Below, one piece after another: positions 1-11,542 of a DNA stretch of 11,542 bases (the first letter of the stretch is position 1; each line of letters opens with the position of its first letter). Under the pieces are notes generated by a model. It worked only from the letters and a program-made list of their open reading frames with translations. It was not told the DNA's origin and searched no databases. The stretch is taken from the NCBI GenBank assembly GCA_021820675.1, contig JAKADI010000016.1, positions 1 through 11,542 of the forward strand, given 5' to 3'. This DNA comes from Bacillota bacterium (GTDB lineage Bacteria; Bacillota; Sulfobacillia; Sulfobacillales; Sulfobacillaceae). Both the position numbers and the translations under genes were made by a program.

Positions 1-800
1 AAGCGGTCGAAGAGTTGATCGTTGAGAACCACATCGTCTAAGACAATTGCTGGATCATTTCCGCCCAGTTCCAAGCTGACATTCTTAATATGCTGGGACG
101 CTACCGCCATCAGCTCGCGCCCGGTTTCGGTACTCCCCGTAAAAGCAATCCGCCGCACTTCCGGATGAGAGGCTAATGCCATGCCCACACTTCGGCCATC
201 ACCAGTCACCCAATTTACCACACCCTCCGGCAACGCTTCCGCGAGAATACGTAAACATTGTCCCAGCGCTAAAGGGGAAAAACTAGCGGGCTTGACGACC
301 ACTGTATTTCCGGAAAGGATTGCCGGAATCACCATTAAGAAACCTAGCGTTAACGGCGAATTCCAAGGCACAATCACGGCCGTCACACCGATAGGGTCAC
401 GCGTATAGAGACTTGGGCCCCGGCGGCTCGGTTCGGTCCACTTCCAAGGAAACGTCTCTGCCAGGTCTGAATAATAACGGATGATGCGTACCGTGGTATG
501 CACATTACGCAAAGACTCCTGATAGACTTTGCCGTGTTCCAGCGTTTGGATTTTCGCAATAACTTCCTGCTGTTCTTCGATTCGCTGAGCGGCGATTCGT
601 AAGACCTCGGCTCGTTTAAATGGATCCCACCCCCGCCATTGCATGAAGGCCTTCCGAGCGGCCCGTACCGCTGAGCCCACCAGGTCCAACGGTGCCTGAC
701 CCAGCGTCCCAACAACATGGTCCAGATTAGCGGGATTTCGCACGACGATTTCCTGGCCGCAGTCCATCGGCTGATGGTCAATGTAACTCGGTAATACCAT
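1..800 (-). CDS. Aldehyde dehydrogenase (NAD(P)+-dependent), N-terminal part only
   Basis: The gene is cut by the left edge; 266 codons of a family usually near 480-500 residues are visible. It would oxidise an aldehyde to an acid with NAD(P)+ in the cytoplasm. The cofactor-binding half is clear: PWNSP (residues 145-149), the NTVVVKPAS strand with Lys170, FTGSTETG (220-227), and LELGGNDP (243-250) with the general-base Glu244. The catalytic Cys would lie just outside the window and cannot be checked. The ATG start follows a GGAGG nine bases upstream; an in-frame GTG lies one codon before it. It is 29 bp downstream of a CoA-transferase gene in the same direction. In this context it probably oxidises the aldehyde released by the proposed retro-aldol step (inference), as vanillin dehydrogenase does in ferulate breakdown. 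Substrate unknown; family assignment secure. Confidence 0.93.
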   Translation of the reverse strand, partial: MVLPSYIDHQPMDCGQEIVVRNPANLDHVVGTLGQAPLDLVGSAVRAARKAFMQWRGWDPFKRAEVLRIAAQRIEEQQEVIAKIQTLEHGKVYQESLRNVHTTVRIIRYYSDLAETFPWKWTEPSRRGPSLYTRDPIGVTAVIVPWNSPLTLGFLMVIPAILSGNTVVVKPASFSPLALGQCLRILAEALPEGVVNWVTGDGRSVGMALASHPEVRRIAFTGSTETGRELMAVASQHIKNVSLELGGNDPAIVLDDVVLNDQLFDR

Positions 801-829
801 CACGTTGTTCCTCCGTTCCTGTTTAGTGG

Positions 830-2029
830 TCAATTGAACACGCCGGCTACATCAAATACCTCATATTCGTCCCGGGTATAGCCTAATAGTCCACAGATGA
901 TATCTGGGTTGTGTTCTCCTAGCAGTGGAGCATGATGGGTATATTGCGCGGGGGTGTCCATGAGATCTACCGGACACCCCGGCATCACTAAACCGGGTAA
1001 ATATGGATGCTGCGTATCAATTAAAAACTTACGCACTTCCAGCTGCGGATCATGAGTCAAGTCTTCGCCGGTAGCCACTACACCAGCAGGGATACCGACC
1101 TTTTGGCACTGCTCCATGACAATCTTGGGATCCTGGGTGAGTGTCCACGCCGCTATTTGTTGGTCTAACGCCCCCTGATGGTCACGGCGTCCAGAAAATG
1201 TACGGAGATTTTGATCCGTCAGCCAGTCATCTCGTTCCATCAGACGACATAACGCTATCCACTGCGCGTCGCTTGTGACCGTAATCACGCACCATCGATC
1301 ACTCCCTAAGCATGGATAACAACCATGTGGGGCGTACGCGGAATGGTGGTTCCCCATCGGGTTTGGATCATCATCGCCGTGTAACACGCTCATATAATAG
1401 GGAGCGAGCAGTGTTGCGGACATTTCCGCTTGAGATAAATCAATCCAGCACCCTTCGCCCGTAACATCTCGGCTTATTATGGCGGCCAAAACCAACGCGC
1501 CGACATGCGCACCGACCACATAATCGGGATACGACGTTTGAGATCCCACGGGTTCCGGCCCATCTTCTTGATTCCATAGGTACGTCAATCCCGATAGTGG
1601 CATAATGCTTGGCCCCCAAGTCACCCAGTGCCGATGGGGGCCTGTGCTTCCTAGCCCTGGTACGCTCACAACCACAAGTTTGGGGTAGTGCGTGCGGAGT
1701 TGTTCATGTCCCATGCCCAGTCGATCCATGACCCCGACACTGAAATTATCGATGACGGCGTCACAAACCTGCAGTAATCGGTCCACGATCGTATGGGCCA
1801 GCGGATGCTTCATATTTAAGGTCAAGCCCAGCTTGTTCTTATTATGGTCGGCAAATGGTCGCGAGGCTTCAATGTGCGAGGCGCTATCCCGGATCCGCCA
1901 TCCATCGGGGCGCTGACGGGATTCGACCTTGATCACCTCGGCACCAAAATACGCAAGTTGTAATGTTCCATAGGGTCCTGCCGCAATATGACTAAAATCA
2001 AGAATGCGAACGTCGTCCAACGGTCCCAT
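830..2029 (-). CDS. Class III (CaiB/BaiF family) CoA-transferase, catalytic Asp present
   Basis: A 399-residue CoA-transferase of normal family length, moving CoA between acyl-CoA and a free carboxylic acid. The N-terminus has the family signature (LDDVRILDFSHIAAGPY, then FGAEVIKVE). The segment YPDYVVGAHVG followed by TGEGCWIDLS carries Asp169, aligned with the catalytic Asp of formyl-CoA transferase that forms the acyl-aspartyl anhydride. ATG at 2029 is preferred over the in-frame GTG at 2032 because GAGGAGG then lies seven bases upstream. The gene follows, after 22 bp, a second CoA-transferase of the same length that lacks this Asp. Together they resemble two-subunit enzymes of this family such as BbsEF (benzylsuccinate CoA-transferase). 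I infer that this is the catalytic subunit or partner and that it activates the acid processed by the neighbouring hydratase. Donor and acceptor are unknown. Confidence 0.93.
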   Translation of the reverse strand: MGPLDDVRILDFSHIAAGPYGTLQLAYFGAEVIKVESRQRPDGWRIRDSASHIEASRPFADHNKNKLGLTLNMKHPLAHTIVDRLLQVCDAVIDNFSVGVMDRLGMGHEQLRTHYPKLVVVSVPGLGSTGPHRHWVTWGPSIMPLSGLTYLWNQEDGPEPVGSQTSYPDYVVGAHVGALVLAAIISRDVTGEGCWIDLSQAEMSATLLAPYYMSVLHGDDDPNPMGNHHSAYAPHGCYPCLGSDRWCVITVTSDAQWIALCRLMERDDWLTDQNLRTFSGRRDHQGALDQQIAAWTLTQDPKIVMEQCQKVGIPAGVVATGEDLTHDPQLEVRKFLIDTQHPYLPGLVMPGCPVDLMDTPAQYTHHAPLLGEHNPDIICGLLGYTRDEYEVFDVAGVFN

Positions 2030-2051
2030 CACTTAGCCTCCTCAGTTTGTT

Positions 2052-3251
2052 CTAGATGACTGCAAGAGCCCGCAATCGGTCGAGATCAGCGACCGACAAG
2101 CCTAGCGTCTCGTGGTACAGGTGTTCATTATATTCGCCGGATTCCGGCAAGGGAGCGAGCGATCTTCGGTTACCGTCCACCATCCATGGCGATGTGAGAT
2201 AGTCGTACTCCAATAACGGATTGCCCACAGTTTTTGCCACAAACCCTCGGGCTCGCACTTGTTCGTCCTGCAAATACTCGTTTAGGGTATTTACGGGCGC
2301 ACAGGGAATTTTTCGCCGTTGGGCTTCCTTATAGAGGACCTGTTTCGTAAAATTCCCGGTCCACTTGCTCACTGCCGCATCAATCTCTTCCGCATGACGT
2401 CGCCGATACCGTGCATCCGCCCACTCCGTGCCGGCAAAAGCTGGCGGATTGCCCATCCATTCCATCAGCCTATCCCAAGCCCCTTGTTGGGCGGGGCTCA
2501 CAAAAAAGTGCACCCATCCATCTTGGCAGGCATACACACGGCCTGGTGTGGCCACACGATGCTGGCTTCCCAATCGCGGCGTTGAGCGCCCCTCTCCCGT
2601 ATAAGCCGAGATCAGGTTTTCTTGGGCCGCAAAACAGGCTTGGATGGATACATCAATAAATTGCCCGTGTCCGGTTCGCTGTTTAACACGCAATGCCGTC
2701 AATATCGCAAACGCCGCATGCGCCCCACCGATTATGGCCCCATGCGGTCCTGGCGCGCCAGTGGGAGGCCCTGCTGCCGATCCGCTCACTGCCATGAGAC
2801 CCCCCATCGCAAAATTAACCAGTTCTGTGGCCAACCATTCGCTCCGTGGCCCAGACTGGCCGAACGGAGTAACGGCCGCCTGAATCAAACCCGGATTGTC
2901 TGATTGCAATGTGCCGTAATCCAGCTGCCACGCCACCAATTGCCCTGGTATGGTGCCGTCAAGAATCACGTCCGCGTGCTGTGCCAACTGCCTAAATAAT
3001 GACTGGCCATCCGCCTGTCTGAGATCTAACGTAATGCTGTGCTTTCCCACGTGAAAATACGCAGCACTAGCGCTTTGCCCATGGAGAGGTCCGTGATGGA
3101 TTATGGGCATCTCATGCCGTGATACATCCCCCGCAGGAGGCTCTACCAGCACAACCTCCGCCCCAAATTCGGCCAGCAAACGTCCACAATACATCACATT
3201 AGGATGAGCAATCTCTAATACCCGCAGGGTTCCGATCGTTAATCCAGCCAT
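2052..3251 (-). CDS. Class III CoA-transferase family protein lacking the catalytic Asp
   Basis: A 399-residue CaiB/BaiF-family protein. The CoA-binding N-terminal region (TLRVLEIAHPN, FGAEVVLVEPPAGD) and the later TGHGQFIDVS motif are clear. Aligning the latter with the neighbouring paralogue puts Ala172 (in GPHGAIIGG) where that protein has catalytic Asp169; no nearby acidic residue substitutes. It may therefore be a non-catalytic partner subunit of a heteromeric CoA-transferase, or have changed chemistry (inference). The reading frame opens further upstream, to 3317, but ATG 3251 is chosen because GGGGAGG lies seven bases before it and the longer version would overlap the hydratase gene by about 60 bp. 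The spacer to the hydratase is only 4 bp and the binding site lies on that gene's last codons and stop, so coupled translation is likely. Confidence 0.9.
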   Translation of the reverse strand: MAGLTIGTLRVLEIAHPNVMYCGRLLAEFGAEVVLVEPPAGDVSRHEMPIIHHGPLHGQSASAAYFHVGKHSITLDLRQADGQSLFRQLAQHADVILDGTIPGQLVAWQLDYGTLQSDNPGLIQAAVTPFGQSGPRSEWLATELVNFAMGGLMAVSGSAAGPPTGAPGPHGAIIGGAHAAFAILTALRVKQRTGHGQFIDVSIQACFAAQENLISAYTGEGRSTPRLGSQHRVATPGRVYACQDGWVHFFVSPAQQGAWDRLMEWMGNPPAFAGTEWADARYRRRHAEEIDAAVSKWTGNFTKQVLYKEAQRRKIPCAPVNTLNEYLQDEQVRARGFVAKTVGNPLLEYDYLTSPWMVDGNRRSLAPLPESGEYNEHLYHETLGLSVADLDRLRALAVI

Positions 3252-3255
3252 ACTC

Positions 3256-4041
3256 TCACCTCCCCTGATAATTCGGCGGGCGTTTCTCACGAAACGCGCG
3301 GATTCCCTCTTCCGCATCCTCCGTGTGGCGATTACGTAGTGCGAATAGATTATCCTGCACGAGCGCGGCCGACAGCGTCATGTCCAATCCCCGGTATACT
3401 GATTCTTTAATGGTTCTAACGGCCAGTGGCCCGTTTTGGCAAATTTGGTTTCCCAATGCTATGGCCCGATCTAATAATTCGGCCGCGGGCACCACCGCTT
3501 GAACGAGGCCGATGCGATGAGCTTCCTCCGCCCCAATCGTTTCACCGGTAAACAACAGCCACAGCGCAGTGCCCAAGGGGATCGTACGCGGTAAGCGCTG
3601 GCATCCTCCCGTGCCGGGAATCAGGGATCGTTTAACCTCTGGAAATCCAAATTGAGCGTTTTCGGTAGCAATGCGGATGTCGCACGCGAGTGCCAACTCT
3701 AATCCCCCACCCAGCGTATATCCATTTACCGCCGCGATCACAGGCTTCCATAGTGTGATCGGATTATGCCCTGTGAGCCCTGGGGGTCGCCGTTGGCGGC
3801 CAACCGCTCGCGCTGCCACACTTAAATCGAGCCCCGTGGAAAATGCCTTTCCGGTACCCGTGATGATCAACACCCAAGCATCATCGTCAATTTCAAATTC
3901 TTGCAGATATTGCGATTGGGCCTCGACCCCTTCTGGTGTCAGGGCATTCAACTTGGCGGGGCGGTTAAGGGTCATAATTCTAAGATGCTCGCACGACTCC
4001 CATCGGATCTCTGACTCTAGTCCTATTTCTTCCGGTGCCAT
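3256..4041 (-). CDS. Enoyl-CoA hydratase/isomerase family protein (crotonase fold)
   Basis: A 261-residue crotonase-fold protein of typical length, expected to add water across the 2,3-double bond of an enoyl-CoA. The oxyanion-hole segments are present: GTGKAFSTGLDLS (residues 62-74) and AVNGYTLGGGLELALACD (104-121). Both glutamates of a true hydratase are there: Glu115 (GGGLE) and Glu135 (FGFPE), 20 residues apart, as are Glu144 and Glu164 of rat mitochondrial hydratase. This argues for a hydratase rather than an isomerase or hydrolase lacking one of them; a combined hydratase-lyase of the feruloyl-CoA type cannot be excluded. ATG 4041 follows an AGGAGGAG about six bases upstream; the longer frame to 4083 would overlap the DUF35 gene. 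It lies 29 bp after that gene and 4 bp before a CoA-transferase, so it most likely hydrates the CoA thioester made by the transferase pair. Confidence 0.93.
   Translation of the reverse strand: MAPEEIGLESEIRWESCEHLRIMTLNRPAKLNALTPEGVEAQSQYLQEFEIDDDAWVLIITGTGKAFSTGLDLSVAARAVGRQRRPPGLTGHNPITLWKPVIAAVNGYTLGGGLELALACDIRIATENAQFGFPEVKRSLIPGTGGCQRLPRTIPLGTALWLLFTGETIGAEEAHRIGLVQAVVPAAELLDRAIALGNQICQNGPLAVRTIKESVYRGLDMTLSAALVQDNLFALRNRHTEDAEEGIRAFREKRPPNYQGR
3259..3265 (-). promoter_or_regulatory. Ribosome binding site that decides the CoA-transferase start
   Basis: On the minus strand GGGGAGG lies within the last codons of the enoyl-CoA hydratase gene, right before its TGA, seven bases before ATG 3251. 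It supports the short start of the downstream CoA-transferase and suggests translational coupling between the two genes. Confidence 0.75.
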
Positions 4042-4070
4042 ACGCAACTCCTCCTTTTGACTGATAGATC

Positions 4071-4475
4071 TTATTGAGGGCAAAAATAGGGTAGGGAAAT
4101 GGTGTCATCTAGGGCCTCGAATAAAACCCTGACCGACATTCCAATTTCCACGGCTTCCGGTTCACACCCAACAATCCGCGAGGTCATCCGAGGGCCTTCT
4201 TCCAGATCGATAAGGGCTAACACATACGGGACCTCCTCCCGAAAGCTCGGCAACACACCGCTCCGTACCACTCCAAACGTATATACCCGTCCCTTCCCAC
4301 TAACTGGAGTCCATTTGAATTGGTCTGACAAACATTCAGGGCAGACTGGACGCGGTCGAAATCGTAGTGTATGACACTCCGAGCACTCTTGCATTCTGAG
4401 TTCTTCCGCTCGGCACCCTTCCCAAAAAACTTCTGAATCTTCATCTGGTCTTGGTAGTGGACGTTTCGTATTCAT
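4071..4475 (-). CDS. DUF35 zinc-ribbon/OB-fold protein, likely partner of the thiolase-like protein
   Basis: A 134-residue protein with the two-part DUF35 layout. A short N-terminal helix leads into a rubredoxin-like zinc ribbon with Cys31-x2-Cys34 and Cys45-x2-Cys48 (CSECHTLRFRPRPVCPEC). An OB-fold follows (about 55-130) with GKGRVYTFGVV and PYVLALIDLEEGPRMTSR. Known members bind thiolase-fold enzymes and are needed for their activity: ChsH2-DUF35 with the aldolase Ltp2, and BbsA with BbsB. A thiolase-fold gene lies just upstream in the operon, separated by the transporter gene, and is the obvious partner (inference). ATG 4475 follows AGGAGGAG by eight bases; an in-frame GTG lies directly before it. 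The upstream TTG at 4502 is an unlikely start. By itself the protein is not expected to be an enzyme. Confidence 0.9.
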   Translation of the reverse strand: MNTKRPLPRPDEDSEVFWEGCRAEELRMQECSECHTLRFRPRPVCPECLSDQFKWTPVSGKGRVYTFGVVRSGVLPSFREEVPYVLALIDLEEGPRMTSRIVGCEPEAVEIGMSVRVLFEALDDTISLPYFCPQ

Positions 4476-4526
4476 CACGATATCTCCTCCTGGTTTTTTC
4501 AAAACTGCCGAAAGAACTCGGACTAG

Positions 4527-5795
4527 CTACGCTGTGATGGTCTGGACCCGACCCAATAACAGTCCATATGACAACCCAGCCCCGACTTGGATCACCGCGG
4601 CCACCAACAGGGGCCCCATAAATGAATGAGTCATAGTCAACAAAATGCCAGTAACAATTGGGGCCACTATCCCTCCCAGTCCCGCTGCGGTATTCATAAT
4701 CCCACCGACTTGGCCTGCCGCATTGAGGGGCGCAATATCGGCGCCAGTGGCCCAACACATAGATCCACCTGCCGTACTAAAGGCCTCGGCTATCGCAAGA
4801 AAGATCGCGGCGAGTACCGCGTTGTGAATAATCGCTGCCAAGACCATGCTCGTACCCAATACGGCTGTTGGCACCAGCACCCATTTGCGTGCGGCTGTCA
4901 GCGAATATCCCTTCGCGAGGATGCGCCCCGAAATCCAGCCGACAAACGGTTTCCCAACAAGACCCGCTAGGAACACGAGCCCCGTGAAAATACCACTTTT
5001 GAGAATGCTAAAATGAAAGTGCAACACGAAATAGGTGGGCAACCAGGTCAAAAACAGATAGAGGCTGTAATTACTGCCAAAGTAACCAATCGTAAGAGCC
5101 CAGACATTCCTTTCCTGCAGCAGCCGTCGCATCCCGCCCGAGAATGGTGTTGATGGAGCCTTCGGGTTGCCAGCCTTCTGCTTATCTCGATAGGTAACCC
5201 ACCATAAAATCCCCACCAATGCCGACAGGATGCCCGTCACGATAAACATTAACCGCCAACCATACGCCGCGATCAAAGCTCCAGACAGCGCCGCACCTAC
5301 AAAACTTCCCACCGGTAAACCCATCCCAATAATCCCCATCATGAGTGCACGTTCTCGTTCGTGAAACCATCGTTTAAGGAACGGGATCAAGCCGGGATAC
5401 ATCGGGGATTCGGCCACCCCCAGGCCCCCCCGTACTAGCCCCAGACCGAAGGGCGTGCCTGCGGCAGCCGTAAGTGCCGAGAAAATGCCCCAAAACCAGA
5501 ACATACCCGTAAAGGTCTTCCGTATTCCCAATCGGTCAATCAAATAACCCGACGGTATTTGAAGGATGGTGTAGCTCCAAAAGAAGGTCGATAAGACCAC
5601 TCCCATTTCCGCGTGTGACATATGCATCTGTTTAGTAATCAACGGAGCCGCAACGGAAAGATTAACGCGATCGATGAATGTCACCATAATCCCTAAAAAA
5701 GCCAACACTAATACCCAATATCGGTAACCCGATCGCTGTTCTTGAACGTCGACCCCATCGCCACTCGAGGCCTTTGAGCCCACGGCATTCGCCAT
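4527..5795 (-). CDS. MFS transporter of the anion:cation symporter type
   Basis: A 422-residue membrane protein with about 12 hydrophobic segments and a hydrophilic middle loop (about 202-230, TYRDKQKAGNPKAP). Signatures of the MFS and of its anion:cation symporter branch are visible: IDRVNLSVAAPLI at the end of helix 1 (41-53), GYLIDRLGIRK between helices 2 and 3 (83-93), and GLGVAESPMYPG with KRWFHERERA (125-150). Known members of this branch carry sugar acids, tartrate, phthalate and 4-hydroxyphenylacetate by proton symport. In this operon it probably imports the pathway's acidic substrate or an aromatic acid intermediate (inference). ATG 5795 has AGGAGG six to seven bases upstream. Spacers on both sides are about 50 bp, the widest inside this gene block. 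Its placement between the thiolase-like gene and its presumed DUF35 partner is slightly odd. Confidence 0.93.
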   Translation of the reverse strand: MANAVGSKASSGDGVDVQEQRSGYRYWVLVLAFLGIMVTFIDRVNLSVAAPLITKQMHMSHAEMGVVLSTFFWSYTILQIPSGYLIDRLGIRKTFTGMFWFWGIFSALTAAAGTPFGLGLVRGGLGVAESPMYPGLIPFLKRWFHERERALMMGIIGMGLPVGSFVGAALSGALIAAYGWRLMFIVTGILSALVGILWWVTYRDKQKAGNPKAPSTPFSGGMRRLLQERNVWALTIGYFGSNYSLYLFLTWLPTYFVLHFHFSILKSGIFTGLVFLAGLVGKPFVGWISGRILAKGYSLTAARKWVLVPTAVLGTSMVLAAIIHNAVLAAIFLAIAEAFSTAGGSMCWATGADIAPLNAAGQVGGIMNTAAGLGGIVAPIVTGILLTMTHSFMGPLLVAAVIQVGAGLSYGLLLGRVQTITA

Positions 5796-5847
5796 TGGTA
5801 ATCCTCCTTATCTTTACTCATCTACTGAGTGCCTCACGATCAACCTT

Positions 5848-7002
5848 TTAAGGCTCGTCCCGACTAAGAATCAGCGTGCCATGGGTACTCATTTGACCCC
5901 CATGACCGGATACGAGTGCCCGCCGAGCACCAGGCACCTGCCGCTTAGGCTCTACCTCTCCTCCCCGCAACTGACGTACTCCTTCCACCACATGCAACAT
6001 GCCTTCTACATGGCCTTGAGATAATAGTCCGCCATGTGTGTTAACCGGCAATCGTCCACCAATTTCGATTTGTCCATCCTGCACAAACTCCGCGCCTTCT
6101 CCTTTTTCACAAAATCCATAGTCCTCCAATTCTGATAACACGACATACGTAAAACAGTCATATAGTTCCGCAACGTCGATATCTTTGGGCGTAATCCCGG
6201 CCCGTCGAAATGCATCGGGTCCCGATATATGGGCCCCCAACCGCGTCGCATCCGCATGTTGGTCCGAAATAAAGCGATGCGGATGAAATTGCCCGTAGCC
6301 AGCGATGTAAATTGGAGCTTTCCGGAGATCTTTAGCACGGTCAGCGCTCGTTACAATGAACGCCCCAGCTCCGTCACTAACCTGGCAACAGTCGAGTAGA
6401 CGGAATGGTTCAACCACCCACCGAGAGGCCCAGTAGTCGTCTAACGTCATCGGCTCACGGCGCTGAGCATTAGCATTGAGAGAAGCATGTTTCCGCATGG
6501 CCATCGCAATGTTCCCGAAGGCTACATTGGGTGTGCCATATTCGTACATGTGTCGCTGGGCAGCCATGGCATGCACGGCGATCGCACCGGGATGCCCAAA
6601 AGGTCGGTCGAATTCATCAAATCCCCGGTCCACGGGCGGTGTATGGCGGGGCCGTGTGGGCCCAGTTTGCTGCTTTTGCGCATGAATGCATAAGACGGTT
6701 TCACATAACCCCGCGTCGATGGCTGCCATCGCTTGTTGCGCCATACAGACAGAAGTGGCCCCACCCAGTTCCATTACGGTGGTATACCGCGGTTGAATGC
6801 CTAATAACGTGGCAACTTCTAAGCTGTAAATGAAGGTTCCCCCCATCTGCGACGTAAGCACTCCATCAATCTCCTTGTGATTCATCCCGGCGTCTTCGAT
6901 CGCGCGTTTGGCCGCCAATAGCGCGAGACCGGTTTTGCTCCATTCCGGCACCTTACCTACCGGGGTCTCCCCAACACCCACGATGGCATACGTTCCATTC
7001 AT
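5848..7002 (-). CDS. Thiolase-fold protein without thiolase cysteines; candidate acyl-CoA retro-aldolase
   Basis: A 384-residue thiolase-superfamily protein of the lipid-transfer/SCP-x-like group. The N-terminal AIVGVGETP and the middle GLCETVLCIH match the family. Where thiolases carry the nucleophilic Cys, this protein reads MELGGATSVCM (78-87), which aligns Gly81 with that Cys. Near the C-terminus LVSGHGG replaces the second catalytic Cys region. The His of the GH motif is kept (THGGLLSQGH, His331), and AELYDCFT (279-285) is typical of the group. Loss of both cysteines fits Ltp2-like proteins, which with a DUF35 partner cleave 3-hydroxyacyl-CoA by retro-aldol chemistry; a DUF35 gene is nearby. 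I infer release of acetyl-CoA (or a homologue) and an aldehyde, matching the aldehyde dehydrogenase downstream. ATG 7002 lies 11 bp after the lyase stop, with a G-rich, less canonical binding site on that stop. Confidence 0.88.
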   Translation of the reverse strand: MNGTYAIVGVGETPVGKVPEWSKTGLALLAAKRAIEDAGMNHKEIDGVLTSQMGGTFIYSLEVATLLGIQPRYTTVMELGGATSVCMAQQAMAAIDAGLCETVLCIHAQKQQTGPTRPRHTPPVDRGFDEFDRPFGHPGAIAVHAMAAQRHMYEYGTPNVAFGNIAMAMRKHASLNANAQRREPMTLDDYWASRWVVEPFRLLDCCQVSDGAGAFIVTSADRAKDLRKAPIYIAGYGQFHPHRFISDQHADATRLGAHISGPDAFRRAGITPKDIDVAELYDCFTYVVLSELEDYGFCEKGEGAEFVQDGQIEIGGRLPVNTHGGLLSQGHVEGMLHVVEGVRQLRGGEVEPKRQVPGARRALVSGHGGQMSTHGTLILSRDEP

Positions 7003-7013
7003 CACAATCCCCC

Positions 7014-8630
7014 CTAATTCCACACGGATTCTACTGCCGCACTGATAGCGCCGGTGCGAATCAACTGCACGACTGACTCGATATCGTCTTCTAATTCTCG
7101 GTCGCGATCGACAAAACGGCTGACCTTGCGAACTAGCTCATATACCGGACGCGTGGCACCGAGCTTGTCGACTCCACGTAGATCTGCGGCTTGGCAGAGA
7201 CCTATCAAATGGACAGCCAGCGCGTCTTCCACTAAGTGAATGACGTCGCGTGTTTTACGCGACGACGTGGCGCCCATACTGACCTTGTCCTGGTTATGCG
7301 CCGCAGTGGATCGGGAAAATACGCTCATCGGCATACAGGCTTGAAGCGCTTCCGCAGTCAGCGCCGACATCAGTAGTTGCATGCCCTTAAATCCGTGATA
7401 CACCCCTTTATCAGGATGATCGTCGGCGAGAGGCACAATAAGGCCCGGTGTCAATCCCTGATTAAACTTGTCGTCGACCAATAAAGCAAATTGCCGATCA
7501 ATAAGATCGCAGACACTAGCCACGGCCGTTCGCAAACTGTCCATCGCTAACGACATATGCCCTCCCGTGAAATTGCCTCCGCTGTGTACCGTCCCGGTTG
7601 CGACATCGTATAAAGGATTGTCGTTGCTAGAGTTGAGTTCCGTTTCTACCCACCCTTTAACCCATTGGCACGTATCGTAGAGCATCCCGTTGAAATGCGG
7701 TGCACACCGTAATGAATACTTGTCTTGGATCCGGACCGATAGCAAACGGAACCCTTCCTTCATCACACCGAGTCCGCTCACGACATCTTGATAATTCCTG
7801 GCGAGTTGGCTTCCTTCTAATAATCGCCCCAAATGCTGGCTCGCTTGCTGCAATCCCGCATGCGTTTTGTGTTCCGACAAAAATGGATCAAACGGCCCAT
7901 CGATGCCCAAGAGAACCTCCACAGCCAATGCCGTGCAGATATCGACCACTCTGGCAATCTCCATGGCATCCACCACGGCCAACGCGGCCAAGCCTGTCAT
8001 AAATTGCGTCCCGTTGGTCATGGCGAGTCCCTCTTTGGGCTCCAACGTAAGCGGTTCTAGTCCGATATCCTCCAGTGCAACTTGCGAAGCCACCAATTCG
8101 TTGCGATAGTAAGCGGATCGATCGCCCATTAATGTCGCGGCAATGTATGACCCGGGAATGAGGTCCCCGCTGGCCCCCACGGATCCAATTTCCCGAATCG
8201 CAGGGGTCACCCCCTCGTTCAACAGGGTGAGGAGATTTTCCACTAGTTTCAATCGTACCCCAGAATTCCCACGTGCTAAGCAGTTGGTTCGGGCGAGCAC
8301 CACGGCTCGCGCTTCATCAGGAGGCAAATATGGCCCGCGTCCGCACCCATTTTTACGGATCTGCGCCTCGGGTAATCGGGCAGCGCGATCGCGCCCCACT
8401 TGACGATTGACTGAATCTCCGAATCCCGTGGTGACGCCATACACTGGACGTCCCGCTCCGATAAGTTTCTGATTCAATGTATAACTTCCAATAATACGCT
8501 CCGCAGTCTGGCCATCGGTATCGAGGGCCACGCTAGTACCGTGTCGGGCGACACGGGCAACATCGTCCACGGTAACCGAATATCCGTCCACTACCACCAC
8601 ATCATGCTCTCTCGAAGTGTCCTTCTCCAT
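7014..8630 (-). CDS. MIO-dependent aromatic amino acid ammonia-lyase family protein (HAL/PAL/TAL superfamily)
   Basis: A 538-residue member of the ammonia-lyase superfamily, of normal bacterial length. The MIO cofactor is formed from Ala153-Ser154-Gly155 in GSVGASGDLIPGSYIA. Other active-site elements are present: Tyr64 (VYGVTTGFG), Asn206 (MTNGTQ), Arg308 (YSLRC) and NSSNDNP (333-339). The ASGDLIPxSYIA, GFKG (413-416) and HNQD (445-448) segments look more like phenylalanine/tyrosine lyases than histidase, which has QED in the last motif. The selectivity dyad, Phe-Leu in PAL, His-Leu in TAL and Ser-His in HAL, is here Lys93-Asn94 (IRKNGCGRG), so the substrate cannot be read off. RCxPQ has become RCAPH, and the PAL-type Glu before HNQD is Ala. 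No urocanate hydratase or other hut gene is nearby. First gene of the eight-gene block; ATG follows GAGGAGG by nine bases. Ergothionase-type or other non-canonical lyase activity is possible. Confidence 0.92.
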   Translation of the reverse strand: MEKDTSREHDVVVVDGYSVTVDDVARVARHGTSVALDTDGQTAERIIGSYTLNQKLIGAGRPVYGVTTGFGDSVNRQVGRDRAARLPEAQIRKNGCGRGPYLPPDEARAVVLARTNCLARGNSGVRLKLVENLLTLLNEGVTPAIREIGSVGASGDLIPGSYIAATLMGDRSAYYRNELVASQVALEDIGLEPLTLEPKEGLAMTNGTQFMTGLAALAVVDAMEIARVVDICTALAVEVLLGIDGPFDPFLSEHKTHAGLQQASQHLGRLLEGSQLARNYQDVVSGLGVMKEGFRLLSVRIQDKYSLRCAPHFNGMLYDTCQWVKGWVETELNSSNDNPLYDVATGTVHSGGNFTGGHMSLAMDSLRTAVASVCDLIDRQFALLVDDKFNQGLTPGLIVPLADDHPDKGVYHGFKGMQLLMSALTAEALQACMPMSVFSRSTAAHNQDKVSMGATSSRKTRDVIHLVEDALAVHLIGLCQAADLRGVDKLGATRPVYELVRKVSRFVDRDRELEDDIESVVQLIRTGAISAAVESVWN

Positions 8631-8834
8631 TTACTGATACCTCCTCATAGTCTCGACAAGCTTGCTTCTTCTAAGTAGGTAAGTCACCACTCGCCATCGT
8701 TTTTTCTTTGTTGCACCCCCTCGCTCGCTCTACATTCTCGATCACTTTTTCGCTTTTTTTTGTGGAGGAGGACTTGAGCGGCCTAAGTTTTTTGTTGGCC
8801 GTCCCCGTCGCCCGGTTAAGGCGTGATCGAACGC
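8631..8834. other. Intergenic region between ring-cleavage block and ammonia-lyase block
   Basis: A 204-bp non-coding gap, the largest between genes here. It holds three T-rich clusters on the plus strand (about 8700-8705, 8745-8761 and 8788-8793), which read as A-tracts in the direction of transcription, and the GAGGAGG site of the lyase gene. I find no good promoter hexamer pair and no strong hairpin followed by a U-run for the dioxygenase gene. A separate promoter for the lyase block is plausible from the gap size only. Confidence 0.4.
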
Positions 8835-9812
8835 TTAATTTTCAGCGAGGTTCGGTCTCCACACGCCAAACGCCATTCCCATTCCGGTTCCCGCCGGCGA
8901 CCGATAAGCCGGAATATAGTCAATTACGTCAAACGTATGGTCGTGAAGCGCCGCCCCCACGCACACCCAATTTCGAATCTCCGAAGTGCCGGACATCATT
9001 GCTTCTTCCGGCAGGGTTTGGAGCACGGCGGTATCATGATCTCGCAGGGCACCCAATACTCGGCGATCGAGGTCTTCGTCGACGACAAAATGACTCAGTC
9101 CTCCAGAGGCAATCAGGGCCACTCGCTCGCACCCAGTCCATCGGTCAATCGCTTGGCGTACACCTTGACCTAACCGCCAACATTGCGCGACCGTGGGTTG
9201 ATTAGGGGGATAGTACGTATTGAGAAAAATCGGGACCATCGGGATAATCTCTTGCCCCATAAGTCGCCGACGTACGAAAGTGTAGGCATGCCCCAGAGTG
9301 CGAGCGGGTGGTTGGCGTGTAAACCACGTTACATCAATTCCTCCTGTTGTTAGGCTCCTAACGATAAATTCTGCCAGGCCATTATCAGTTGGGTAGGCTT
9401 CCCGCCGATTTCCGTGGCGCGCCCAATACGCGGGCCAAATGGCTGGATGGTAGGCATCCAGCCCTGGGGGGATATCGTCCAGATGGTCCCCTCCAAAGAT
9501 CGCCACCGCGGGACGCAAGTCGGCCGAAAAAATCTCGTCCTGATCGTCCCCAATCACCACTACCACGTCTGGCTTAACCACCCGGAGAGCATCTGCCAAG
9601 GCCCAAATCCCTCGCTGGCACCGTTCGTATTTTTGCCTCCAACAATCAAAGGTTAACTCAGATGACAATGAGTGACCCCGTTCAGCAAGAAGTACGTCAT
9701 ACGGAATGTCATTGTTACGGCGGTCGCGTTCCGCGTGCACAATCCATTGCTCTGCAGGGGTGCTACATTGTGGGCTATGCGACGTGCCTATCCCGAGTAC
9801 AATCTGTGCCAT
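8835..9812 (-). CDS. Class III extradiol ring-cleavage dioxygenase (LigB family)
   Basis: A 325-residue single-chain LigB-fold protein, expected to open a catechol-type ring with O2 and Fe(II). His12 (GIGTSHSP) matches a metal ligand of LigB, Glu278 (GTSEIRNW) matches its metal-binding Glu242, and His241 (ASGGLSHF) matches the catalytic His195. The second metal His of LigB, in YNDHATAF, aligns with Gln91 here (GDDQDEIF). VPIFLNTYYPPNQP (193-206) and the C-terminal YRSPAGTGMG recall the 3-O-methylgallate dioxygenase (DesZ) branch as I remember it. With GalC- and GalB-like genes directly upstream, gallate, a methylgallate or protocatechuate is the likely substrate (inference). ATG 9812 follows AAAGGAGG by about ten bases. 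It is 24 bp after the aldolase gene. An AMMECR1/Memo-like protein is less likely because of the GTSHSP and GGLSHF motifs. Confidence 0.87.
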   Translation of the reverse strand: MAQIVLGIGTSHSPQCSTPAEQWIVHAERDRRNNDIPYDVLLAERGHSLSSELTFDCWRQKYERCQRGIWALADALRVVKPDVVVVIGDDQDEIFSADLRPAVAIFGGDHLDDIPPGLDAYHPAIWPAYWARHGNRREAYPTDNGLAEFIVRSLTTGGIDVTWFTRQPPARTLGHAYTFVRRRLMGQEIIPMVPIFLNTYYPPNQPTVAQCWRLGQGVRQAIDRWTGCERVALIASGGLSHFVVDEDLDRRVLGALRDHDTAVLQTLPEEAMMSGTSEIRNWVCVGAALHDHTFDVIDYIPAYRSPAGTGMGMAFGVWRPNLAEN

Positions 9813-9836
9813 AGGGGTCCGCCCTCCTTTGTCCGT

Positions 9837-10538
9837 TTACTCAATGGCTGATTCCTCGTCATAGCGAACACCAAGCTTTTTTAGTAAGGGCCGCAATTGG
9901 TAAAAATCAACACTTAATTCCCCTCGGCGGATTTTGGCCCGGGTATCTTCTTCTTTGGCCGCGCGTTGCGTGGCCAAAGCACGCACTTGATCCACGGCAC
10001 CTCTGTCTATCACAACAATTCCGTCGTCATCAGCTACCACAAAATCGCCCGGATTAACCGTCACGCCTCCCGCGACAATCGGTACATTGACCCAGCCGGC
10101 GGAAGCCTTAACGGTACCTGCGGCGCTTACGTGCCGGGACCACACCGGAAATTCCATAGCCCTTAAACGGGCCGTATCTCGGACACCAGTTTCCAACACT
10201 GCCCCAACCACTCCGCGAGCACGACAGGCTTCTGCTAACAGTTCGCCGAATGCTCCATGCGACGACGGAGCCAACGTGGCCACAACCAAGATATCTCCCG
10301 GTTGGCACGCCGCGATTGCCGCATGGATCATCAGGTTATCGCCTGCTGGACACAATACCGTTATGGCCGGCCCCGCAACACATATCCCCTGTTGGATTGG
10401 CCGCAACTCCGACGCCCACAGTCCGCGCTTGGCTTGCGACTCCGCTAAGGTGGCGACACCAAATTCCTTAAGTGCTTTCGCGGTCATCACGTCGTCGCCA
10501 CTCCGCATAATCGTCAACTTCACTGAATACGGATTCAT
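9837..10538 (-). CDS. RraA/HMG-aldolase family protein, probable 4-carboxy-4-hydroxy-2-oxoadipate aldolase (GalC-like)
   Basis: A 233-residue RraA-fold protein with the C-terminal extension seen in class II pyruvate aldolases (about 190-233, charged). The active-site stretch GELLAEACRARGVVGAVLETGVRD contains Arg120 and the metal-binding Asp121, equal to Arg123-Asp124 of the Pseudomonas HMG/CHA aldolase. AGTVKASAGWVNVPIVAGGVTVNPGDFVVADDDGIVV follows the family closely; in plain terms residues 140-177 are conserved. Two usual Asp positions are Glu here (Glu99 and Glu116). The aldolase would split 4-carboxy-4-hydroxy-2-oxoadipate to pyruvate and oxaloacetate, the last step of gallate and protocatechuate 4,5-cleavage. 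Context supports this over the RNase E-inhibitor role: it lies between a GalB-like gene (4-bp ATGA overlap) and a LigB-type dioxygenase. The start is set by a GGGGAG site within a run of eight G. Confidence 0.87.
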   Translation of the reverse strand: MNPYSVKLTIMRSGDDVMTAKALKEFGVATLAESQAKRGLWASELRPIQQGICVAGPAITVLCPAGDNLMIHAAIAACQPGDILVVATLAPSSHGAFGELLAEACRARGVVGAVLETGVRDTARLRAMEFPVWSRHVSAAGTVKASAGWVNVPIVAGGVTVNPGDFVVADDDGIVVIDRGAVDQVRALATQRAAKEEDTRAKIRRGELSVDFYQLRPLLKKLGVRYDEESAIE

Positions 10539-11248
10539 CGCAACTCCCCCCCCACCAATGGATATGATCGTACGAAGGCCTCAGCGTACCGATACGTTCC
10601 CTTACCCGATATCCTCCGGGCATGATTTCCGCGAATCGCTGCACGCATGGCATAATATTCGATGAGGTGTTGCTGAGTTTGAAAGCATTCCATTGCAGCC
10701 CGCTTCTTTTCGAAGACGTCGGTTATATCGACAATGATATCAGGATGAAACTGAGACAGTTCCGATTGATGATGTTCGAAGCCAAACAATGCCGGTTGCT
10801 TACACACGGGGAGGATCGGCAACACCCCATGGGCTATAGATAATACCGATGCGCGGTGGACCGCGACAGCCGTAGCCTCGTGATCAGGATTAAACGGGTC
10901 ATGAGGGCCATGGGTTAATATCGTGGAAGGACGCCACTCCCGCAAATATTCCACGAGACATAAAACGCGGTCATTTGAAAATTGTAGTGGATAATCATCC
11001 CAATCCAAAAACAATATGGGTGCACCCAAAATGTCTGCCGCTCGCTGGCTTTCCTCTCTGCGATGCGCTTTAATAGAATCCAGCGTACCGCCGTGTTTCC
11101 AGAGTTCTGCAGATTCTCCTCGCTCGCCATAACTTAAAGCAACGATTTGGACCGTTTTTCCCTGTTGTACGTAGCTCGCAATAGTCCCCCCGCTACGCCA
11201 GACATAATCCGCCGCATGTGCACTAATAACCACCAAGTCTGTCACCAT
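10535..11248 (-). CDS. PIG-L/LmbE-fold protein, probable 4-oxalomesaconate hydratase (GalB-like)
   Basis: A 237-residue PIG-L/LmbE-superfamily protein. Deacetylases of this fold have AHPDDE; here the motif is SAHAADYVWRSGG, keeping the zinc ligands His11 and Asp14 but replacing the general-base Asp with Ala13. A third likely zinc ligand is His123 in DPFNPDH. HAAD with VWR, and the SYGERGES and FGFEHHQ segments, match my memory of Pseudomonas GalB, a member of this fold that hydrates 4-oxalomesaconate to 4-carboxy-4-hydroxy-2-oxoadipate in gallate degradation. The next gene encodes the enzyme for that product, which strongly supports the call. ATG 11248 is chosen over the in-frame GTG 11257 because GGGGAG then lies eight bases upstream. 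It is the first recognisable gene of the block. The end overlaps the aldolase start by four bases. An N-acetylglucosaminyl deacetylase is less likely given the missing base. Confidence 0.82.
   Translation of the reverse strand: MVTDLVVISAHAADYVWRSGGTIASYVQQGKTVQIVALSYGERGESAELWKHGGTLDSIKAHRREESQRAADILGAPILFLDWDDYPLQFSNDRVLCLVEYLREWRPSTILTHGPHDPFNPDHEATAVAVHRASVLSIAHGVLPILPVCKQPALFGFEHHQSELSQFHPDIIVDITDVFEKKRAAMECFQTQQHLIEYYAMRAAIRGNHARRISGKGTYRYAEAFVRSYPLVGGELR
10544..10553 (-). promoter_or_regulatory. Ribosome binding site of the aldolase gene within a run of eight G
   Basis: On the minus strand eight consecutive G (10553-10546) followed by AG form the only plausible ribosome binding site for the aldolase ATG at 10538. 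The run lies inside the last codons of the GalB-like gene (Val-Gly-Gly-Glu). A length change would shift that gene's final codons and alter the site. Confidence 0.55.
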
Positions 11249-11314
11249 TGTCCTCACTCCCCATATAAAGGTATTGGGCTTGGACCTGCTTCTTTAGGAA
11301 GTAAGTCCCACGGA

Positions 11315-11350
11315 CTTCGGTGAGGGCCTTGGCCATGGTTCTCACCGAAG
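11315..11350. repeat. 10-bp perfect inverted repeat (stem-loop)
   Basis: CTTCGGTGAG at 11315-11324 is the exact reverse complement of CTCACCGAAG at 11341-11350, with a 16-base GC-rich spacer holding GGCC twice. It shares three bases with the small hairpin at 11303-11317, so the two cannot form fully at the same time. There is no U-run after it on either strand, so it is not a typical intrinsic terminator. Confidence 0.7.
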
Positions 11351-11463
11351 CCGGGCCCGATCTGGATATATCTGTCTTGCTTTTCAAGACCCAGTCCCAG
11401 CCGATGATTCTGGATCTGACCCGGACAACTGCTGCACATCGCCCCTGTCTCGAGGGGTACCCA

Positions 11464-11482
11464 TACGGGCTGCTGACCCGTA
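11464..11482. repeat. 19-bp dyad, TACGGG-N7-CCCGTA
   Basis: Two perfect 6-bp arms flank a 7-base spacer. On the minus strand TTGACT (11487-11482), a good -35-like hexamer, runs directly into the dyad. With a 16-base spacer the -10 would be TATGGG, which is weak. It could be an operator or one more hairpin of the structured segment. Confidence 0.4.
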
Positions 11483-11542
11483 GTCAACTTTTACCGCGGG
11501 TCGGTCACATTCTTTATTGCAACAATGTTTTCGGATTGGTGC

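Follow-up and report, generated by a model that had tools for sequence, protein, structure and literature searches.

A putative catabolic operon joining an aromatic ammonia-lyase, a proposed retro-aldol side-chain cleavage and gallate-type ring-cleavage genes in a Sulfobacillaceae genome

Aldolytic side-chain shortening is known from bile-salt and sterol degradation (Shy1/Sal1/Sad; Ltp2-ChsH2). In the feruloyl/p-hydroxycinnamoyl-CoA hydratase-lyase route, which usually uses a ligase, a cinnamate CoA ester is converted to an aldehyde and acetyl-CoA, and oxidation follows. The bbs operon of anaerobic toluene degradation encodes BbsEF, BbsH and BbsAB, and the logic of the GalA-GalB-GalC pathway requires, at GalB and GalC, a carboxylated, vicinally hydroxylated ring. 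Likenesses to all of these systems are found on a single contig of 11,542 nucleotides (JAKADI010000016.1; G000:C437), whose entire length was analysed and is called the window here; it belongs to a metagenome-assembled genome (MAG) of 2.6 Mb with a completeness of 61%. The window most likely represents most of one catabolic operon, which, as judged from its sequence, would probably degrade a ring-hydroxylated aromatic amino acid via a benzoate to central metabolites, with retro-aldol cleavage of the side chain. The kinds of enzyme are individually known; their combination appears to be new within the databases searched.

All eleven open reading frames (ORFs) lie on the minus strand, packed from 11257 to 3, and nine of the ten intergenic gaps (range -62 to 204 bp) are 52 bp or shorter, which confirms a preliminary description of eleven closely spaced, same-strand genes, whose list lacked the MFS transporter. 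The sole large gap, 204 bp, separates the dioxygenase and lyase genes, and two transcription units are therefore possible. In the order of transcription, the genes are as follows.

10535..11257, minus strand: PIG-L family 4-oxalomesaconate hydratase (GalB-like); matches 5cgz_A over residues 8-234, E 5.9e-53
9837..10538, minus strand: RraA-fold 4-carboxy-4-hydroxy-2-oxoadipate aldolase (GalC/LigK-like); NF006731, 277.8 bits
8835..9812, minus strand: divergent class III extradiol dioxygenase with the LigB/DesB fold; Gln91 at a LigB iron-ligand His position
7014..8630, minus strand: 4-methylideneimidazole-5-one (MIO) aromatic amino acid ammonia-lyase with an unusual substrate pocket; PF00221, 497.6 bits
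5848..7023, minus strand: thiolase-fold protein without the nucleophilic Cys, proposed retro-aldolase; PF22691, 178.6 bits; start perhaps Met8 (7002)
4527..5795, minus strand: MFS transporter; PF07690, 191.5 bits; TIGR00893, 244.7 bits, below its cut-off of 395
4071..4502, minus strand: DUF35 protein (zinc ribbon and OB; zf-ChsH2 and OB); PF01796 and PF12172 above cut-off
3256..4083, minus strand: enoyl-CoA hydratase with E129 and E149; PF00378, 193.5 bits
2052..3317, minus strand: class III CoA-transferase subunit a (CoAT_a); PF02515, 275.6 bits; start perhaps near 3251
830..2032, minus strand: class III CoA-transferase subunit b (CoAT_b); PF02515, 323.3 bits
3..833, minus strand: aldehyde dehydrogenase (ALDH), N-terminal 277 residues, cut by the contig end; PF00171, 239.8 bits

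From the gene content and order, the fold and family assignments, the catalytic residues present or absent and the conservation of most of the set in another genome, all of which are observed, we infer each of the following reactions, including the retro-aldol step and the identity of the substrate. The MIO lyase would deaminate a ring-hydroxylated aromatic amino acid, at a guess 3,4-dihydroxyphenylalanine (DOPA) or a trihydroxyphenylalanine, to a cinnamate-type acid, and the two-subunit class III CoA-transferase would convert this acid to its CoA ester. The crotonase-type hydratase would add water to the cinnamoyl-type ester, and the thiolase-fold/DUF35 pair, which lacks the thiolytic Cys, would split the 3-hydroxyacyl-CoA into an aromatic aldehyde and acetyl-CoA. 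Oxidation of the aldehyde by ALDH would then yield gallate or protocatechuate, whose ring would be opened by the LigB-fold dioxygenase, and GalB and GalC would convert the cleavage product to pyruvate and oxaloacetate. The ring substrate may be gallate itself; if it is protocatechuate, the semialdehyde formed by ring cleavage would have to be oxidized further, possibly by an ALDH. The ring demanded by GalB and GalC agrees with the product of hydroxycinnamate side-chain shortening, and the MFS transporter presumably serves substrate uptake.

An independent genome carries a similar set. Among the best 80 of 584 relatives from a scan of genome contigs with the lyase, the top locus, on a contig of an Actinomycetes MAG (L052; lyase 67% identical), has homologues of eight of the eleven window genes on one strand within approximately 13 kb. 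The remaining identities are 46% for GalB, 49% for GalC, 37% for the dioxygenase, 38% for ALDH, 53% for CoAT_b, 68% for the hydratase and 49% for CoAT_a. Chance adjacency of the window genes is rejected on the basis of this co-location. The preliminary description had placed the side-chain and ring blocks in one pathway and had proposed conservation of the set elsewhere as a check; L052 supports a link between the blocks and makes the proposed coupling of side-chain and ring catabolism directly testable, a support that does not extend to the thiolase step. The two-stage pathway of that description is upheld only in part. The L052 locus additionally encodes a fused electron-transfer flavoprotein, a PaaK-like ligase (below cut-off) and a DUF6282 protein. 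A CADD/PqqC-like protein (1248-2024, below cut-off) and a GntG-type aldolase dependent on pyridoxal phosphate (PLP; 8817-9839, above cut-off) are also encoded there.

The gene set is rare within what could be searched. Another window gene is detected at 1e-8 in two of the best 80 loci, many of which have short flanks: L052 itself and L121, which has a hydratase of 39% identity. At 1e-120 the lyase matches one of 298 genomes of the order of L052, that being the L052 genome. At 1e-60 it matches 48 of 61 relatives' genomes, the host's included, but the matches outside the host are only 34-41% identical and are therefore not taken as orthologues.

The retro-aldol step is suggested by the residues of the thiolase-fold protein and its neighbours. 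Gly88 occupies the position at which true thiolases have the nucleophilic Cys, and the PDB matches include 4u4e_A (E 5.7e-87) and the lipid-transfer protein 6ok1_A (E 1.2e-65), which we take to be an Ltp2. The DUF35 gene lies one gene away in the same run, with the transporter gene between, so the combination typical of Ltp2-ChsH2, a thiolase fold without Cys together with a DUF35 gene, is found in the window; the DUF35 protein is presumed to be the partner of the thiolase-fold protein. The window hydratase has both catalytic Glu positions (E129 and E149), whereas two aligned hydratase-lyases lack the first, and NF006588 is outside its best 25 of 73 models; its identification as a p-hydroxycinnamoyl-CoA hydratase/lyase is rejected on these grounds. 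Against the EchA19 model it scores 240.6 bits, below the cut-off of 400. No 3-hydroxyacyl-CoA dehydrogenase is encoded in the window. Taken together, a thiolase without Cys, a hydratase of non-lyase type, an ALDH and the lack of a dehydrogenase favour retro-aldol cleavage to an aldehyde, and such an activity of the thiolase-fold/DUF35 pair on a 3-hydroxyacyl-CoA appears likely. Like the bile-salt and sterol systems, the window encodes a hydratase, a thiolase-fold protein lacking the Cys, a DUF35 protein and an aldehyde dehydrogenase; unlike them, it has these in one run beside an aromatic ammonia-lyase and genes for gallate-type ring cleavage. It would share the overall chemistry of the hydratase-lyase route, except that a separate aldolase would perform the cleavage and that a CoA-transferase is present instead of a ligase. 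If this assignment is correct, aldolytic side-chain removal, known from sterols and bile salts, would extend to phenylpropanoids.

Beta-oxidative shortening, in which a dehydrogenase encoded elsewhere would yield a 3-oxoacyl-CoA and the thiolase-fold protein would release an aryl-CoA by thiolysis, is improbable. In its favour, the bbs operon likewise joins a two-subunit class III CoA-transferase with a hydratase and thiolase/DUF35 genes, the MAG has a completeness of only 61% and its contig is truncated here, and there are matches to BbsA (35.5 bits against a cut-off of 250) and BbsB (111.3 bits against 750), both far below threshold. Thiolysis is nevertheless difficult to reconcile with Gly88 at the nucleophile position, the window is without the dehydrogenases of the bbs operon, and its ALDH would be idle.

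Several observations weigh against the proposed operon function, and some of them concern the thiolase step directly. No thiolase or DUF35 gene is seen at L052, where the contig stops approximately 75 bp past the end of the matched lyase, and the sole thiolase and DUF35 matches in that bin, neighbours on a different contig, have 32-34% identity and include a thiolase that carries the Cys. Between the window and L052, identity is as low as 37-38% for the dioxygenase and ALDH, which allows for separate recruitment. The host also has other thiolase/DUF35 pairs: one of its contigs (C161, L138; 4.5 kb) carries an MFS-thiolase-DUF35-CoAT_a-CoAT_b module but neither a lyase nor a hydratase gene (thiolase 52%, DUF35 53% and CoAT_b 62% over 77 residues). 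Beyond the thiolase step, the usual ring-pocket residues are absent from the window lyase, leaving its substrate a putative assignment, and the dioxygenase family carries an altered iron-ligand position, as described below.

These data bear on another reading, in which the thiolase-fold, MFS and DUF35 genes form a separate, interleaved acyl-CoA module and hydrated cinnamoyl-CoA is split by the hydratase or by another enzyme, such as a PLP aldolase of the L052 type. L052 retains the lyase, CoA-transferases, hydratase, ALDH and ring cleavage without a visible thiolase/DUF35 pair, the C161 module stands by itself, and neighbouring thiolase and DUF35 genes are commonplace, a DUF35 match lying within 1.5 kb in 13 of 14 thiolase loci (L038-L051). 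The window hydratase, however, does not show the hydratase-lyase pattern, the thiolase and DUF35 genes flank the transporter inside one run, and the L052 contig ends right after the lyase, exactly where the window has the thiolase gene. An interleaved module is therefore considered unlikely, though less so than beta-oxidation. The C161 cassette also ties the thiolase/DUF35 pair to CoA-transferases. The aldolase role given to the pair in the preliminary description retains the Cys-less thiolase type, the DUF35 gene in the run and the hydratase-type crotonase in its favour, and lacks the presence of the pair at L052. Among three thiolase paralogues of the host genome, two are without the Cys, and in the third it is shifted one position on. 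At 1e-60 the thiolase matches 12 of the 398 host-phylum genomes, its own included; among plasmids, 67 records match it at 1e-70 (best 44%), and 97 match the hydratase at 1e-40 (42-48% among the best matches listed).

A connection to cinnamates, as suggested in the preliminary description, is borne out by the CoA-transferase pair. On another contig of the host (C270, L186), a LysR gene and a p-hydroxycinnamoyl-CoA hydratase/lyase gene are followed by a fused CoA-transferase pair, which is 34% and 45% identical to the window pair (45% to CoAT_b). The NF006588 cut-off of 276 is passed by this hydratase/lyase locus (386.8) and by L034 (447.3), and L186 apparently encodes a CoA-transferase-driven hydroxycinnamate route; a CoA-transferase pair adjoins an enzyme of the hydratase-lyase route in this genome. 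In a relative of the same family (G023:C265, L204; 10.8 kb), a fused pair (44% to CoAT_b) lies on the opposite strand to three genes, which encode a DesA/LigM-like protein (model scores of 480 and 415 bits, each below cut-off), a protein of the RidA type and GalB (47%); the set is likely to serve methoxylated aromatic catabolism. Both associations point the substrates of the CoA-transferase pair toward cinnamate-type acids. Of 34 family genomes, two match CoAT_b at 1e-60, its own included, and it has zero matches among plasmids at 1e-70.

The window lyase has the residues of an MIO aromatic amino acid lyase. Y64, A153-S154-G155, N206, Q302, Y305, R308 and F354, which we take to be the catalytic residues (the A-S-G triad and the Tyr, Asn, Gln, Tyr, Arg and Phe positions), are conserved in all 82 aligned sequences, the window included. 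The substrate-facing positions differ: K93, N94, Q209, T355 and A443 occur in combination in the window and L052 only (2 of 82). At positions 93/94, presumably the ring-pocket dyad (His/Leu/Phe type in related enzymes), the other sequences have YH (48), FH (17), FL (12), LN, FM or QH (one each), and Ser-His of the tyrosine aminomutase 2rjr aligns with K93-N94. Position 443, presumably the amine-site Glu, is Glu in 80 of 82 sequences and Ala in the window and L052. The usual dyad plus Glu of tyrosine and phenylalanine ammonia-lyases is thus not found in the window enzyme, and, if its role is as proposed, this distinctive pocket would belong to an ammonia-lyase of the DOPA type.

The same K93/N94/T355/A443 pocket leaves some room for a lyase with a different substrate, such as an amino acid that is heteroaromatic or carries a ring carboxyl group, or for an aminomutase, with the operon degrading that compound. 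The upstream GalB and GalC suit a benzoate-type intermediate, however, and the CoA-transferase pair is linked to cinnamates by C270 and C265, so a different substrate is considered rather unlikely. The top-scoring NCBIfam model of the lyase is that of BagA/FevW, the tyrosine ammonia-lyases of bagremycin and ferroverdin, at 549.7 bits; the score is below the cut-off of 1000, the pocket is unlike that of 80 of the 82 sequences, and the window neighbours are catabolic. The nearest plasmid relative (Pseudonocardia, 55%) has neighbours annotated as ketosynthase, acyl carrier protein and acyltransferase, not catabolic, and nine records of the phage collection match the lyase, with at most 35% identity among the five listed.

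Two of the three ring-cleavage genes agree with the gallate pathway. The GalB-like protein is a full-length match to the solved 4-oxalmesaconate hydratase 5cgz_A (next PDB match 1.8e-10), and the GalC-like protein passes the NF006731 cut-off of 179, with 233.4 bits against TIGR02798 (under its cut-off of 304.5), so that both names given in the preliminary description hold. Its third member does not: the LigB fold spans most of the dioxygenase, which is of LigB/DesB type, and its score of 32.3 bits against the GalA model NF009904 (cut-off 412) leads to rejection of GalA. No tautomerase or regulator, further parts of that pathway, is encoded among the eleven genes. The 4-hydroxybenzoate hydroxylase (TIGR02360, E 1e-20) is not found in the 61%-complete host genome; a ring hydroxylase would be unnecessary if the lyase substrate already bears vicinal hydroxyls, as in DOPA.

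Relative to the LigB iron ligands H12, H61 and E242, the window dioxygenase keeps H12 and the Glu (E278), while the second His is replaced by Gln91, which leaves the His-His-Glu set of class III extradiol dioxygenases incomplete. The Gln is present in all eleven aligned members of the family (window 8835-9812; plasmid loci L033-L035, L141-L145 and L148). Across the host phylum (398 genomes), the dioxygenase has a match at 1e-15 in one genome, its own. The lyase pocket and this Gln-substituted family are the most unusual observations made here, and the latter, if the assignment is right, offers a testable iron site among class III extradiol dioxygenases. A complete catabolic pathway starting from a polyhydroxylated aromatic amino acid, combining a lyase of new specificity (Lys/Asn pocket, Ala for the amine-site Glu), steroid-type retro-aldol shortening of an aryl-3-hydroxypropionyl-CoA and a dioxygenase iron centre with Gln replacing one His, is possible but doubtful as a whole.

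The window matches its host in composition. Its GC content of 0.538 is inside the range of 19 usable host contigs (0.481-0.548; 20 were sampled, and one consisting only of N was left out), and its tetranucleotide correlation is 0.89, compared with 0.75-0.95 for these contigs and 0.42 for the actinomycete locus L136; bin contamination as its source is rejected on these values. Rfam has zero matches in the window at the gathering score, and scans of positions 11150-11542 and 8600-8860 show no promoter or terminator consensus. The operon may extend further, since ALDH is cut by the contig end. Contig C24 starts with an ALDH C-terminal half and is a candidate continuation, but C479 likewise ends in an N-terminal half, and the C24 half is therefore left unassigned to the window ALDH.

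Relatives of the dioxygenase occur in other contexts. On Bradyrhizobium plasmids (L035 and L148), the gene is found alongside RidA, amidohydrolase, RraA and two cytochrome P450 genes. Three IMG/VR contigs carry a LigB-type dioxygenase-like gene that is 39-49% identical to that of the window (L198 1910-2923, L199 2567-3580 and L200 1-426), among phage-like neighbours, of which DNA-polymerase-like and Hsp20-like ORFs were judged by eye only. The two near-identical copies on these virus-like contigs that cover the site have Gln as well, and the gene is a possible candidate for an auxiliary metabolic gene.

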